Positions 42,868 through 46,301 of a stretch of DNA of 64,000 nt are shown here, one piece after another. Source of the stretch: Serinicoccus profundi (GTDB lineage Bacteria > Actinomycetota > Actinomycetes > Actinomycetales > Dermatophilaceae); the NCBI RefSeq assembly GCF_008001015.1, contig NZ_CP042862.1, forward strand, positions 2,418,001-2,482,000, read 5' to 3'. The first letter of the stretch is position 1, and every line of letters begins with the position of its first letter. The notes under the pieces are model-generated. The model was not told the origin of the DNA and did not search any database. It saw nothing but the letters and a program-made list of their open reading frames with translations. Position numbers and translations under genes: made by a program.

Positions 42868-44103
42868 GTGCCGTCACCGCAGCTGCCACCGACCGCCCGG
42901 GAGACCACCGCCGCCTCCCCGTGGCCGGTGCGCACCCTGTCGATGAAGATCAGCGACTACGTCGACAAGATGTCGCCGCTGTGGGTCGAGGGGCAGATCG
43001 TCCAGCTCAACCGGCGCCCCGGGATGTCGACCGCCTTCCTCACCCTGCGCGACACCGACGTCGACATGTCCCTCTCGGTCGCCATCCCCACCGGTGCGCT
43101 GGACGCCATGCCGGCACCGCCGGAGACGGGCGCCCGGGTCGTCGTCCACGCCAAACCGACCTTCTGGACCAAGCGCGGCACCCTGCAGCTCGAGGCGCGC
43201 CAGATGCGCCACGTGGGCGTCGGTGAGCTGCTGGCCCGGCTCGAGCACCTGCGTCAGCTGCTGCGCAGCGAGGGGATCTTCGACGCCGCCCGCAAGCGAC
43301 CGTTGCCCTTCCTCCCCCGCCGGGTCGGCCTCATCACCGGCCGGGCCACCGCCGCCGAACGCGACGTGCTGGCCGGGGTGGCGCGCCGCTGGCCCGCCGC
43401 CGTCGTCGAGGTCCGCCAGGTCCCGGTGCAGGGCACCGAGACAGTCACCGCCGTGACCGCCGCGCTGCGCGAGCTCGACGCGCATCCCGAGGTCGAGGTC
43501 ATCGTCATCGCCCGGGGCGGCGGCTCCTTCGAGGACCTCCTCCCCTTCTCCAACGAGGCCCTGGTCCGGGCGGTGTCCTCGGCCGGCACCCCGGTGGTGT
43601 CGGCGATCGGGCACGAGAGCGACACCCCCCTGCTGGACTTCGTCGCCGACCTGCGGGCCTCAACCCCCACCCACGCCGCCGCGGCGGTGGTCCCGGACGT
43701 GGCCGATGAGCTCGCGGGGCTGCGCACGGTGGCCGCGCGCTCGCGCCGCGCCCTCACGACCCGCATCGCCCGGGAGCGCGAGCGGCTCGTGGACCTCATG
43801 GCGCGTCCGGTCATGGCTGACCGGGCCGCCATCGTGGCCCAGCACCGCCGAGACATCGGCGACCTGCACGGCCGCGGCCGGTCGGCCCTGGACACCCGCC
43901 TGGACCGCGAGCGCGACCGCAGCGACCAGCTGCGGCGTCACCTGCGCGCCGTCTCGCCCCAGCACACGCTCGAGCGGGGGTATGCCGTCGTGCGACACGC
44001 CGACGGCGCCATCGTCCGCGACCAAGAGGAGGTCGAGGCCAAGGAGCTCCTGCGCGTCACCGTCGCGCACGGCGACTTCGCGGTGCGGCCGGTCACCCGG
44101 TAG
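42868..44103 (+). CDS. xseA: Exodeoxyribonuclease VII large subunit
   Basis: 411 residues. Single-strand-specific exonuclease VII catalytic subunit. The N-terminal OB-fold reads SPLWVEGQIVQLNRRPGMST, the catalytic domain has the conserved IARGGGSFEDLLPFSNEALVRA and GHESDTPLLDFVADLRASTPTHAA segments, a long coiled coil follows (RIARERERLVDLMARPVMAD), and the C-terminal strand block ends LERGYAVVRHADG. The GTG at 42868 is fixed by the leaderless promoter; an upstream in-frame extension is Arg/Pro-rich and not family-like. XseA normally sits directly before xseB; here a MerR-type gene on the other strand separates them. Confidence 0.95.
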   Translation: MPSPQLPPTARETTAASPWPVRTLSMKISDYVDKMSPLWVEGQIVQLNRRPGMSTAFLTLRDTDVDMSLSVAIPTGALDAMPAPPETGARVVVHAKPTFWTKRGTLQLEARQMRHVGVGELLARLEHLRQLLRSEGIFDAARKRPLPFLPRRVGLITGRATAAERDVLAGVARRWPAAVVEVRQVPVQGTETVTAVTAALRELDAHPEVEVIVIARGGGSFEDLLPFSNEALVRAVSSAGTPVVSAIGHESDTPLLDFVADLRASTPTHAAAAVVPDVADELAGLRTVAARSRRALTTRIARERERLVDLMARPVMADRAAIVAQHRRDIGDLHGRGRSALDTRLDRERDRSDQLRRHLRAVSPQHTLERGYAVVRHADGAIVRDQEEVEAKELLRVTVAHGDFAVRPVTR

Positions 44104-44151: not shown

Positions 44152-45180
44152 TCACGGTGCCTCGCGCGGCGCGATCGGCATGAGCAGGGCGAGCCGCTCG
44201 CCGTCGTCGGCGCTGAGCACGAGAGGGCCGACCCCGCTGGGCAGCCGGAGCTGACCACCCGGGCCGACACCCTCGAGCGCCTCCAGCAGGAAGGGCCGGG
44301 AGACGAGGTGCCCTCCAGGCAGCTCGACGACGTCGTCGGCCTCCGCGTGCCTCACCCCCTCCCCGGTCGTGCGCGCCACCACGTCCTCGATCTCCTCGAC
44401 GCCCTGCGACAGCGTGTCCTGACCGACGGCCTGCTCGATGACGACGCGGTAGTCAGGGAAGGCGGCGTCCATCCCGGCCACCGCGAGGTCACTGCTCGCG
44501 CCGCGCACCTCCAGCCCGGCATGCGCCAGGCCGACCTCGACGACCCCCGCGTCCTGGGCGAGGTGTGCCACCACCGCATCCAGCGCCGGAGCCTCCAGCA
44601 GCACGCCGGGGCCGCCCCCACCCGGCCCTGCGCTCCCGGCCGTCACGGTCTTCCCGGCGACGGCGACCTTCGCCATGGCGAGCCGGTAGCGGTCCGTCGC
44701 CACGACGTGCAGACCGTCCTCGTCGCCCTCGAGCAGGACCGCCCCCAGCGCGGGGAGCTCGGGGTCCCGCGCCACGGCATACCGGACGCGGGTCAGGGCC
44801 TGCAGCAGCCGGGCGCCGTCCACCCGCACCCGGGCACACCCGTCGACGGCGAGCGCCATGAGGCGTCCGACCTCCGACCGCGCCTGTCGCAGGCCCGTCT
44901 CCAGCCGGCGCAGGTGGGACTGAAGGAGGTCGTCGACGGTCTCGGCGTCCGGGCCCGCGTCCAGCACCGCCGCCATCTCCGCCAGCGGCAGCTCGATGCG
45001 GCGCATCCCTGCGAGCAGCCTGGCCTGCCGCACCTGGGTCGCGTGGTAGCGGCGGTAACCCGTGAAAGGGTCCACGGACGTGGCGGGCAGCAGGCCCTGA
45101 CGGTCGTAGAAGCGCAGCGCGCTGACGGTGAGGCCGCTACGTCGCGAGATCTCGCCGATCGACAGGAGGTCATCAGACAT
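44152..45180 (-). CDS. MerR-family regulator fused to DNA polymerase III beta-clamp-like domains
   Basis: 342 residues in one frame. Residues 5-75 are a MerR winged helix (SIGEISRRSGLTVSALRFYD, GYRRYHATQVRQARLL), followed by the MerR dimerisation coil (to about 112). Residues 120-250 match the second domain of bacterial beta clamps (DnaN): LLQALTRVRYAVARDPELPA, GAVLLEGDEDGLHVVATDRY with the ATDRYRL sequence, a GVLLEAPALDAVVAHL strand-helix, and AAFPDYRVVIEQ. Residues 282-338 resemble the third clamp domain, ending SADDGERLALLMPI, as DnaN ends in LMPMRL. Clamp domain 1 is absent. The ATG at 45180 has GAGGG 7 nt upstream. A canonical MerR operator lies at 45193-45217. The gene lies between xseA and xseB. 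MerR/DnaN fusions are seen sporadically in actinobacteria; the function is unknown. Ligand sensing by a clamp fold or a link to DNA repair are both inference. Confidence 0.82.
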   Translation of the reverse strand: MSDDLLSIGEISRRSGLTVSALRFYDRQGLLPATSVDPFTGYRRYHATQVRQARLLAGMRRIELPLAEMAAVLDAGPDAETVDDLLQSHLRRLETGLRQARSEVGRLMALAVDGCARVRVDGARLLQALTRVRYAVARDPELPALGAVLLEGDEDGLHVVATDRYRLAMAKVAVAGKTVTAGSAGPGGGGPGVLLEAPALDAVVAHLAQDAGVVEVGLAHAGLEVRGASSDLAVAGMDAAFPDYRVVIEQAVGQDTLSQGVEEIEDVVARTTGEGVRHAEADDVVELPGGHLVSRPFLLEALEGVGPGGQLRLPSGVGPLVLSADDGERLALLMPIAPREAP

Positions 45181-45192
45181 GTGCACACCCTC

Positions 45193-45217
45193 GACCCTCG
45201 ACCAGGGTGAGGGTCAA
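45193..45217 (-). promoter_or_regulatory. MerR-type operator: GACCCTC-N9-GAGGGTC overlapping TTGACC -35
   Basis: The inverted repeat has arms 45193-45199 and 45209-45215. On the minus strand TTGACC (45217-45212) forms a -35 running into the repeat, the standard layout of MerR-controlled promoters. It starts 13 nt before the MerR/clamp ATG, so autoregulation is likely. It is also about 44-66 bp upstream of the xseB start, so xseB could be co-regulated. Confidence 0.65.
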
Positions 45218-45246
45218 CCGACACCCTCACCCGAGCGGCTTCGGCG

Positions 45247-45252
45247 TACGGT
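45247..45252 (+). promoter_or_regulatory. Leaderless-type -10 element TACGGT for xseB
   Basis: TACGGT, 6 nt, then the GTG at 45259. xseB therefore has its own promoter and no longer depends on xseA transcription. Confidence 0.6.
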
Positions 45253-45258
45253 GGAGCG

Positions 45259-45576
45259 GTGACCTCAGCACCTGATGCCAGCACGACCAGCGCCGACCTC
45301 ACCCCGGTCGCAGACCTCAGCTATGAGCAGGCACGGGACGAGCTCGTCGCGCTCGTGTCCAGGATCGAGTCCGGCCAGGTGCCGCTCGAGGAGGCCATGG
45401 CGCTGTGGGAGCGAGGCGAGGACCTGGCCGCCCACTGCCAGCACAAGCTGGACGTCGCGCAGGAGACGCTGGACCGCGCGACCGAGCGGGGTCAGACCCC
45501 CGGCTCCCCCAGCACGGACGACACGGGCGCCGACGAGGACACCACGATCGACGACGAGCCGACCGCGCAGGACTGA
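45259..45576 (+). CDS. xseB: Exodeoxyribonuclease VII small subunit
   Basis: 105 residues. The conserved XseB helical core is present at about residues 18-75: LSYEQARDELVALVSRIESG, VPLEEAMALWERGEDLAAHC and LDVAQETLDRA. It wraps the XseA coiled coil to complete the enzyme. The N-terminal 15 residues and the acidic tail (STDDTGADEDTTIDDEPTAQ) are variable additions. The GTG at 45259 follows a leaderless promoter. Its stop codon begins the 13-bp sequence that is repeated on the far side of the inserted VapBC module. Confidence 0.93.
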   Translation: MTSAPDASTTSADLTPVADLSYEQARDELVALVSRIESGQVPLEEAMALWERGEDLAAHCQHKLDVAQETLDRATERGQTPGSPSTDDTGADEDTTIDDEPTAQD

Positions 45577-45636: not shown

Positions 45637-46071
45637 TCAACCGGTCAGCGGATTGCGGACCCGGAGCTGGGGGAACCAGGAGAAGTCTCGGTCTGACGAC
45701 CACAACGCACCGACGCCGTGACCAAGGCAGATCGCCGCGATCCGCGCGTCGTTCACCTTGGGGCCGGCCACCCCGGGCACGCGCAGGAGCCCCGCCAGGA
45801 TCGACCCGTGGTCGGCCGTCTCCGACAGCACCCGCAGGGCGGGCAGCGCGAGCAAGGACTCGACGGCCTCGAGCGCTGCGGTAGGTGACGTCGGGGGGCG
45901 GTAGATGCGCGGGTGCGTCACCACCGCCAAGAACTCGTGCAGGCACGGCCAGGGGATCGCCCAGGCGCCGCGCCCGGTGGCGAGCCCCCGCAGTGCCTGG
46001 GCCGCCCGCTCGTGGTGGGGGCTGTCTGTGCGGTGCGCGTAGACGAGGACGTTGGTGTCGACCGCGATCAC
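45637..46071 (-). CDS. vapC: VapC-type toxin, PIN-domain ribonuclease
   Basis: 144 residues. PIN-domain acidic residues: the first Asp in MIAVDTNVLVYAHR (residue 5), the Glu in CLHEFLAVVTHP (near 45), Asp in KVNDARIAAICL (near 108) and the last in SSDRDFSWFPQL (near 127), so the metal site is complete. PIN toxins cleave RNA, often tRNA or rRNA; the target is not predictable. The GTG at 46071 overlaps the antitoxin stop as GTGA, the usual antitoxin-first coupling. Part of an insertion bounded by a 13-bp direct repeat. Confidence 0.88.
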   Translation of the reverse strand: MIAVDTNVLVYAHRTDSPHHERAAQALRGLATGRGAWAIPWPCLHEFLAVVTHPRIYRPPTSPTAALEAVESLLALPALRVLSETADHGSILAGLLRVPGVAGPKVNDARIAAICLGHGVGALWSSDRDFSWFPQLRVRNPLTG

Positions 46072-46301
46072 GAGGGGAACCCGTAGGACCGGTCCACCAC
46101 GTCCTCGGGTGCCAGCGCGGCGACCAGCCCCTGCCCATCCATCGTGGGGAAGTGGAAGTCGACCTCGACGGCGGCACCGCGCCGATCGACCTCCGCCCGA
46201 AGGCCGGCCACGACGAGTTCCCGGAGCGTCGCTCCCGAGCGCGCGGCGACTCCCTTCGCCTCGAGCGCCAAGGCGTCGGGGATATCGATCGTCGTCTTCA
46301 T
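46068..46301 (-). CDS. vapB: VapB-type antitoxin
   Basis: 77 residues. The N-terminus MKTTIDIPDALALEAKGVAA and RSGATLRELVVAGLRAEVDR is a ribbon-helix-helix DNA-binding fold, and the C-terminal part (AVEVDFHFPTMDGQGLVAAL, DVVDRSYGF) is the toxin-binding tail. The ATG at 46301 is selected because the strand MKTTIDIP is the standard RHH start; the longer frame upstream is not family-like. Its stop overlaps the vapC GTG. The 125 bp upstream contain TACGGG repeated at about 10-bp spacing (around 46316-46331), a possible RHH operator. Confidence 0.85.
   Translation of the reverse strand: MKTTIDIPDALALEAKGVAARSGATLRELVVAGLRAEVDRRGAAVEVDFHFPTMDGQGLVAALAPEDVVDRSYGFPS

Follow-up and report, generated by a model that had tools for sequence, protein, structure and literature searches.

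The minus-strand gene lying between two neighbors presumed to be xseA and xseB encodes a regulator in which a MerR head is followed by a long helix and then by domains 2 and 3 of the sliding clamp; clamp domain 1 is missing. Considered together, the clamp fragment, its pocket, the promoter, an internal start and neighboring exporters fit best with a ligand-induced trap for compounds that bind the clamp pocket. Whether the protein is an autoregulated MerR sensor of clamp-pocket ligands, most likely of a clamp-targeting antibiotic, with a drug-sponge response, we consider evenly balanced. The broader proposition, that this is a widespread form of actinomycete self-defense in which an antibiotic target was cut down to its drug pocket to become the sensor, with a sponge made through an internal start and sometimes an exporter, we hold more tentatively, at somewhat less than an even prospect. 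Table 1 gives the positions within the window, that is, the whole 64-kb stretch of DNA that was analyzed; no Rfam family (at the gathering threshold) and no tRNA gene was found within it.

The mechanism that we propose starts from the computed architecture, fold and pocket-biased conservation: the clamp fragment (domains 2 and 3), probably having lost the ring, would keep much of the clamp ligand pocket and serve as the effector module. A pocket ligand, most likely a clamp antibiotic of the griselimycin/mycoplanecin type, would bind the clamp half, and the MerR half would then activate its own promoter over the 19-bp spacer. The response would be more clamp-pocket protein acting as a drug sponge. 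Much of the main subfamily would also supply it as a free clamp fragment translated from an internal start, and some lineages would add an MFS exporter under the same control. The self-operator, the operator copies at exporters and the internal Shine-Dalgarno (SD) start of the relatives were computed; ring loss, activation by ligand, ligand identity and sequestration are the steps that we infer. The architecture, fold, pocket core and operator are seen in the window copy itself, and the second product and the exporter are features of its relatives.

Table 1. Features of the MerR-clamp gene and its surroundings (window coordinates)
Feature	Position	Strand	Remarks
xseA, exonuclease VII large subunit (presumed)	42868..44103	+	convergent neighbor
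MerR-clamp gene	44152..45180	-	342 aa + stop, start ATG 45180
Sliding-clamp domain 3, residues ~248-337	44170..44439	-	profile comparison, PDB-sequence profile, AlphaFold2, Foldseek
Sliding-clamp domain 2, residues ~114-247	44440..44841	-	Pfam, profile comparison, AlphaFold2, Foldseek
Long helix, residues 79-112	44845..44946	-	AlphaFold2 secondary structure
Candidate internal start ATG (M108)	44857..44859	-	in-frame, just 5' of clamp half, GGAGG 11 nt upstream
MerR winged-helix DNA-binding domain	44959..45162	-	Pfam MerR_1, residues 7-74 of 342
Predicted MerR-type promoter/operator	45187..45217	-	-35 TTGACC 45212-45217, 19-bp spacer, -10 GAGGGT 45187-45192
Dyad GACCCTCACCCTGGTCGAGGGTC	45193-45215	-	within promoter/operator of MerR-clamp gene
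xseB, exonuclease VII small subunit (presumed)	45259..45576	+	divergent neighbor
Pocket residues, domain 2		-	L145, T162, R164, Y165, R166, L167, P242, V247 (342 numbering)
Pocket residues, domain 3		-	L332, M334, P335 (342 numbering)

The original prediction had described a single unbroken frame of 342 residues with a MerR head joined to clamp domains 2 and 3, domain 1 being absent, and this description holds. The open reading frame (44152-45186, minus strand) is intact and has 344 codons when counted from GTG 45186; this in-frame GTG touches the -10 element, and since the promoter geometry is common to the family, we favor ATG 45180 as the start, which gives the 342 residues. A Pfam scan of the window protein placed both MerR (PF00376, E 3.7e-12, 46.3 bits against a cut-off of 28.2) and MerR_1 (PF13411, E 2.8e-10, 40.6 bits against 21.6) above their cut-offs, as it did DNA_pol3_beta_2 (E 4.8e-7); DNA_pol3_beta appeared below its cut-off only. 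In this single-sequence scan DNA_pol3_beta_3 gave no match to the window protein, and among seven relatives scanned with Pfam it was sub-threshold in three and absent in four. Domain 3, invisible to that scan, was seen by profile comparison, by a profile search of PDB sequences and by AlphaFold2 and Foldseek. When a family alignment of 57 rows, the window among them, was compared profile against profile with 17 DnaN rows (one from E. coli, one from the window genome itself and 15 others), the probability was 99.9 and the E value 2e-36, and window residues 116-339 (344 numbering) aligned with E. coli beta 124-365, which is domains 2 and 3; the place of domain 1 is taken by the MerR part. The A3 profile searched against PDB sequences had a best E value of 3.7e-38 spanning both clamp domains. 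An AlphaFold2 model built from 65 sequences had a pLDDT of 90.5 and a pTM of 0.81, and all 50 of the PDB matches listed by Foldseek came from sliding-clamp entries or clamp-containing complexes (best E 2.4e-12), their TM-scores of 0.46-0.53 of the query and rmsd of 4.2-7.1 A reflecting a MerR half that has no counterpart in DnaN. The clamp assignment thus survived comparison at the level of both profile and predicted structure. By analogy, the helix at residues 79-112 may be the MerR-type dimerization coiled coil. The closest solved structure to the MerR head is the multidrug-efflux transporter 1 regulator, presumably BmrR.

The available text of PMC11139829 defines 18 positions of the clamp pocket, which binds clamp-binding motifs and to which griselimycin variants also bind. 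Among 56 relatives, these positions were less variable than the rest of the clamp half (median entropy 1.22 for the 18 pocket positions vs 2.42 for 191 others, p 3e-5), and where DnaN is conserved its residue was retained more in the pocket (mean 0.63, n=16) than elsewhere (0.39, n=81; p 0.011); both p values are guides only, the sequences being related by descent. Eleven of the 18 positions carried the DnaN consensus in at least 62% of relatives: Leu155, Thr172, Tyr175, Arg176, Pro242, Met362 and Pro363 in 80-100%, and positions 177, 360, 364 and 365 in 62-73%. Position 247 did so in 47%, and the remaining six (152, 174, 246, 320, 323 and 344) in 25% or fewer. These six poorly retained positions count against a drug trap, as does the Ala that the window copy has where the E. 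coli clamp pocket has Arg365; given the six and position 247, the ligand of the clamp half may differ from the canonical one. At position 174, all 56 relatives have Arg, as does the DnaN that the window genome itself encodes (TDRYR); 15 of the 17 DnaN rows have Ser there, and E. coli has Gly. Since Arg174 is common to the relatives and to this DnaN, the clamp half may descend from DnaN of the window genome's class.

Conservation of the pocket would also be expected of a sensor of the cell's own state. The clamp half could bind proteins with clamp-binding motifs (e.g. damage-induced polymerases), which in the available text of PMC11139829 use the same pocket, and so read the state of replication or repair, as had been proposed originally. 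We consider this unlikely, though deserving of serious weight: such proteins stand as one possible class of ligand, and the patchy distribution, the exporter partner, which in two genomes carries a separate copy of the operator, and a TipA-like internal start (68/111 main-subfamily genes, lax count) favor a foreign small molecule instead.

Near full-length matches were present in 12 of the 31 genomes of the genus, a patchiness that argues against an endogenous sensor. They were found in 31 of 149 genomes of the bacterial family, with one more cut by a contig end, and in at least 15 of 396 genomes sampled across the phylum; these 15 all belong to the window's class, and the other rows of that sample are DnaN or MerR parts. 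A search of genome contigs with an alignment as the query yielded at least 480 tblastn-related stretches among 595 pattern matches; the 80 best stretches were retained, and a long frame matching the family profile was found in 79 of these; the same kind of search with a single protein as query returned no matches. By record title the relatives belong to Ornithinimicrobium, Streptomyces, Micromonospora, Blastococcus and others, and the MerR-clamp proteins are a sizeable actinomycete family. The last round of gene calling left 5 of 141 loci (L115, L117, L121, L132 and L134) without a family gene above threshold, and the 136 genes were reduced to 130 once near-identical copies and genes with a short upstream stretch had been dropped. 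In a quick tree, 96 rows were divided into 76, the window among them, and 20 others; the labels subfamily I and II rest on this tree, with off-tree loci (about half of those from the contig search) counted as subfamily I. The window copy grouped with its genus (support 90) on a long branch, a further point against reading this copy as a drug trap.

Eight plasmid records also contained relatives, and each of the five annotated ones names the product "MerR family transcriptional regulator". Two plasmids from different genera had in common a 2.3-kb stretch that includes the fusion gene and a downstream TPR-like ORF, which on one of them is flanked by transposase genes. Occurrence on plasmids, in one case between transposases, likewise speaks against an endogenous sensor. 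On the chromosomes of Micromonospora and of clades of Streptomyces the neighborhoods are conserved.

The position between xseA and xseB had been thought meaningful. Both genes do flank the fusion, which shares an intergenic region with xseB (78 bp from ATG 45180 to the xseB start), and in the genus the two are neighbors, as had been stated, with a variable spacer. xseB was found in 30 of the 31 genus genomes, and only in the window's does the fusion lie there (0/29 stretches from the others). xseA fell within the fetched stretch in 27 of these 29, and the estimated xseA-xseB spacer ranged from -6 to 1407 nt, apart from a value of -416 that was treated as an alignment artefact. Given the variable spacer and the location of relatives elsewhere, we reject a meaning for the xseA-MerR-xseB order; the site is local and is probably the result of insertion or relocation. 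Several genus-mate copies lie near genes that resemble ftsK, miaB, recX or recA. The proximity to presumed recA-, recX- and miaB-like genes would suit a monitor of repair, though it reflects shared synteny. Directly 5' of the xseB start (45244-45254) is a GCGTACGGTGG motif that is kept in four near relatives (L251, L252, L253 and L255), which suggests a separate promoter for xseB near the beginning of the gene. Beside xseB are two overlapping small genes (45637-46301, minus strand) that by eye resemble a VapBC-type pair, with a PIN-domain toxin and an antitoxin.

MerR regulators act on promoters with a 19-20 bp spacer that carries a dyad. The upstream regions of the 130 family genes had TTGACC, a 19-bp spacer with a CTCGACCTGGTCGAGGG-type dyad, and a CAGGGT-type -10 that sits a few bases 5' of the start codon in most genes. 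The -35 plus dyad pattern, which was fitted to sites already seen beforehand, matched 127 of 130 family genes; among 2600 shuffles it matched 5, and among the 1278 other genes of the same loci it matched 3. Among family genes having a letter there, the A of the -10 was kept in 124/126 and the T in 124/124. Two of the three non-family matches were MFS genes beside the fusion, each carrying a separate operator, and the third was a divergent neighbor read in the opposite direction. A stricter site, allowed up to two mismatches in 14 chosen fusion genomes, gave 15 rows (control 0). In 10 genomes the promoter of the fusion itself accounted for 11 of them (one palindrome being counted twice), two were at an MFS gene and two lay elsewhere; at the fusion's own promoter the strict pattern found no match in four of the 14 (G250, G416, G620 and G665). 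That 13 of the 15 strict sites precede the fusion or an MFS gene argues further against a sensor of replication or repair.

The only zero-mismatch site in the window genome is the gene's own, which is also the only one within one mismatch, and therefore the predicted product of induction there is the MerR-clamp protein itself. At up to three mismatches the 12 rows are near background (control 6). The sole other site within two mismatches lies 5' of a HEAT-repeat gene (L165, G000:C1:3268740), which we rejected as a second target. A relative of this gene exists in 17 of the 31 genus genomes, including close species without the fusion, and a similar site was present in six of eight checked; since the site recurs in close species that lack the fusion, the HEAT-repeat promoter probably answers to another MerR. 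A perfect 10-bp inverted repeat, GGGTGAGGGT-8nt-ACCCTCACCC (45205-45232), overlaps the operator between the divergent genes and could be a second binding site. The best reading of the predicted operator at its own promoter is that the MerR-clamp protein is an autoregulator.

In two genomes an MFS gene beside the fusion has its own operator copy with identical geometry, and at four loci (L116, L119, L134 and L149) the last 4 nt of the fusion are shared with an MFS gene. Across 131 distinct loci, with L134 added back by hand, MFS-like genes occupied 14 of 260 neighbor places vs 16 of 1146 further places (p 3e-4), a count limited by a profile seeded with those same MFS genes, by related loci and by some doubtful gene models. 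Partners of this kind are ill-suited to a core replication monitor; the link is confined to about 10 of 131 loci (8 in one subfamily and one separate pair), which in turn counts against the drug trap. When three of the MFS proteins were scanned, two showed a likeness to drug exporters, Tet(V) for example, at scores far under the cut-off. Other partners (the TPR-like ORF, a Cys-rich ORF, a serS-like gene and DUF4132) are uninformative about drugs. ORFs of 169-217 aa lie directly 3' of subfamily II fusions (L136, L142, L146, L148, L302 and L303, two plasmids included); those on the plasmids have weak TPR-repeat matches and the remainder look alike by eye. In genus-mates (L094-L096, L098-L100 and L103) the Cys-rich ORF, 90-123 aa long, overlaps the fusion end by 4 nt, and the one at L094 had no Pfam or NCBIfam match.

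Many members of subfamily I have an ATG at the MerR/clamp joint with a GGAG-type sequence about 6 nt upstream. SD-like sequences preceded 69 of 79 linker ATGs vs 38 of 485 other internal ATGs. At 69 ATGs of the joint, codon -3 was GAG in 64 and the nucleotide immediately preceding that codon was G in 67, where 41% would be expected, and Arg at codon -4 was encoded by AGG in 27 of 33, AGG being 3.5% of Arg codons in the family; this choice of nucleotides suggests that the signal is not only an amino-acid effect. By a lax count the internal start is present in 68 of 111 subfamily I genes, the window included through its GGAGG 11 nt away, and missing in 43, among them all 11 genus-mates and 18 genes that are Micromonospora by name or tree; none of the 19 subfamily II genes counted had it. 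Four loci (L143, L213, L215 and L232) have a GTG with an SD-like sequence in place of the joint ATG. M108 of the window copy passes the lax test and fails the strict one, and is a weak candidate for an internal start; its failure under the strict test is one more point against the drug trap in this copy.

A clamp fragment freed by such a start in those 68 genes might act on the host rather than on a drug, as a decoy for clamp-binding proteins that throttles replication or a competing mobile element, with the MerR half only autoregulating. The mostly self-directed operator and the plasmid copies are compatible with this; the lack of the start in all 19 subfamily II genes and all 11 genus-mate copies is not easily reconciled with it, and the conserved chromosomal neighborhoods in Micromonospora and Streptomyces clades speak against a toxic decoy. 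We judge interference with the host clamp to be improbable.

The clamp fold might also only dimerize or stabilize the protein, the true ligand site being elsewhere, and outside the pocket several of the clamp positions that are retained best do look like core residues. MerR proteins dimerize through the long helix, which we count against this idea. The residues that would hold a ring together are also replaced: by alignment, the interface core I272/L273 is substituted, mostly by V/A/T and R/P. Of 16 basic positions conserved in DnaN, 10 hold R/K in 20% or fewer of 80 sequences (by alignment, with the channel lining not assigned), position 152 being both one of these ten and a pocket position; the other six hold R/K in at least 62%, including R176 (99%) and R365 (93%). 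The fragment therefore probably no longer forms a DNA-encircling ring, and a ring or PCNA-like trimer was rejected on account of the replaced interface. The clamp half had been suggested to be a sensor or an oligomerization module: with the interface core replaced and pocket conservation favored, oligomerization through the clamp becomes less likely; the role of effector module is supported. We give purely structural reuse of the fold a low probability, slightly below that of a host decoy. A non-functional or chance fusion in the window genome, which the long branch and a site not common to genus-mates might suggest, is barely credible given 130 distinct family genes with a common promoter, an intact frame, an operator at zero mismatches and a high-confidence AlphaFold2 model.

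If the pocket is the sensor, MerR-clamp proteins would be ready-made biosensors for blockers of the replication clamp, which the abstract of PMC10817943 describes as a validated target against tuberculosis. Being so widespread among soil actinomycetes, they would then indicate that clamp-blocking compounds are common. The self-defense reading, if true, predicts that the natural antibiotics aimed at the clamp extend far beyond griselimycin and mycoplanecin, and would provide a clean example of the fold of a drug target recruited as a drug sensor. Our search of the open literature (titles and abstract openings) found no description of a MerR-clamp protein.

Four known systems invite comparison. 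The available texts of PMC7762955 and PMC6078987 present TipA and AlbA as MerR drug traps, with two in-frame products for TipA and, by the authors' assumption, likewise for AlbA. The MerR-clamp proteins are like them (TipAL/TipAS, AlbAL/AlbAS) in having a MerR head with a C-terminal ligand domain, a self-directed promoter and a trap-like logic, and, as in TipA, more than half of the main-subfamily genes (lax count) are predicted to yield two in-frame products. Unlike them, the effector is a sliding-clamp fragment without a TipAS domain (PF07739 was not among the five Pfam families listed up to E 10 for the window protein), and the internal start of the window copy is weak. MerR multidrug regulators of the BmrR type resemble the MerR-clamp proteins in the head, which is their best solved match, and in the MFS exporter link of some lineages; the clamp domains stand in place of the GyrI-like domain described in the available text of PMC7762955. 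With DnaN itself are shared domains 2 and 3, motifs of the ATDRYRLA, FPDYR and LMPVR type and, judged by conservation, probably much of the partner pocket; domain 1 is missing, the ring-interface and many basic residues are replaced, and a DNA-binding head is fused. According to the available texts of PMC10817943 and PMC11139829, griselimycin and mycoplanecin bind DnaN and their gene clusters carry a spare DnaN gene; these copies, GriR and MypR, are tied to self-resistance in the producers (PMC10817943). Like GriR and MypR, the MerR-clamp protein would be a second copy of an antibiotic's target linked to self-resistance; unlike these DnaN genes, it is a truncated clamp joined to a transcription factor.
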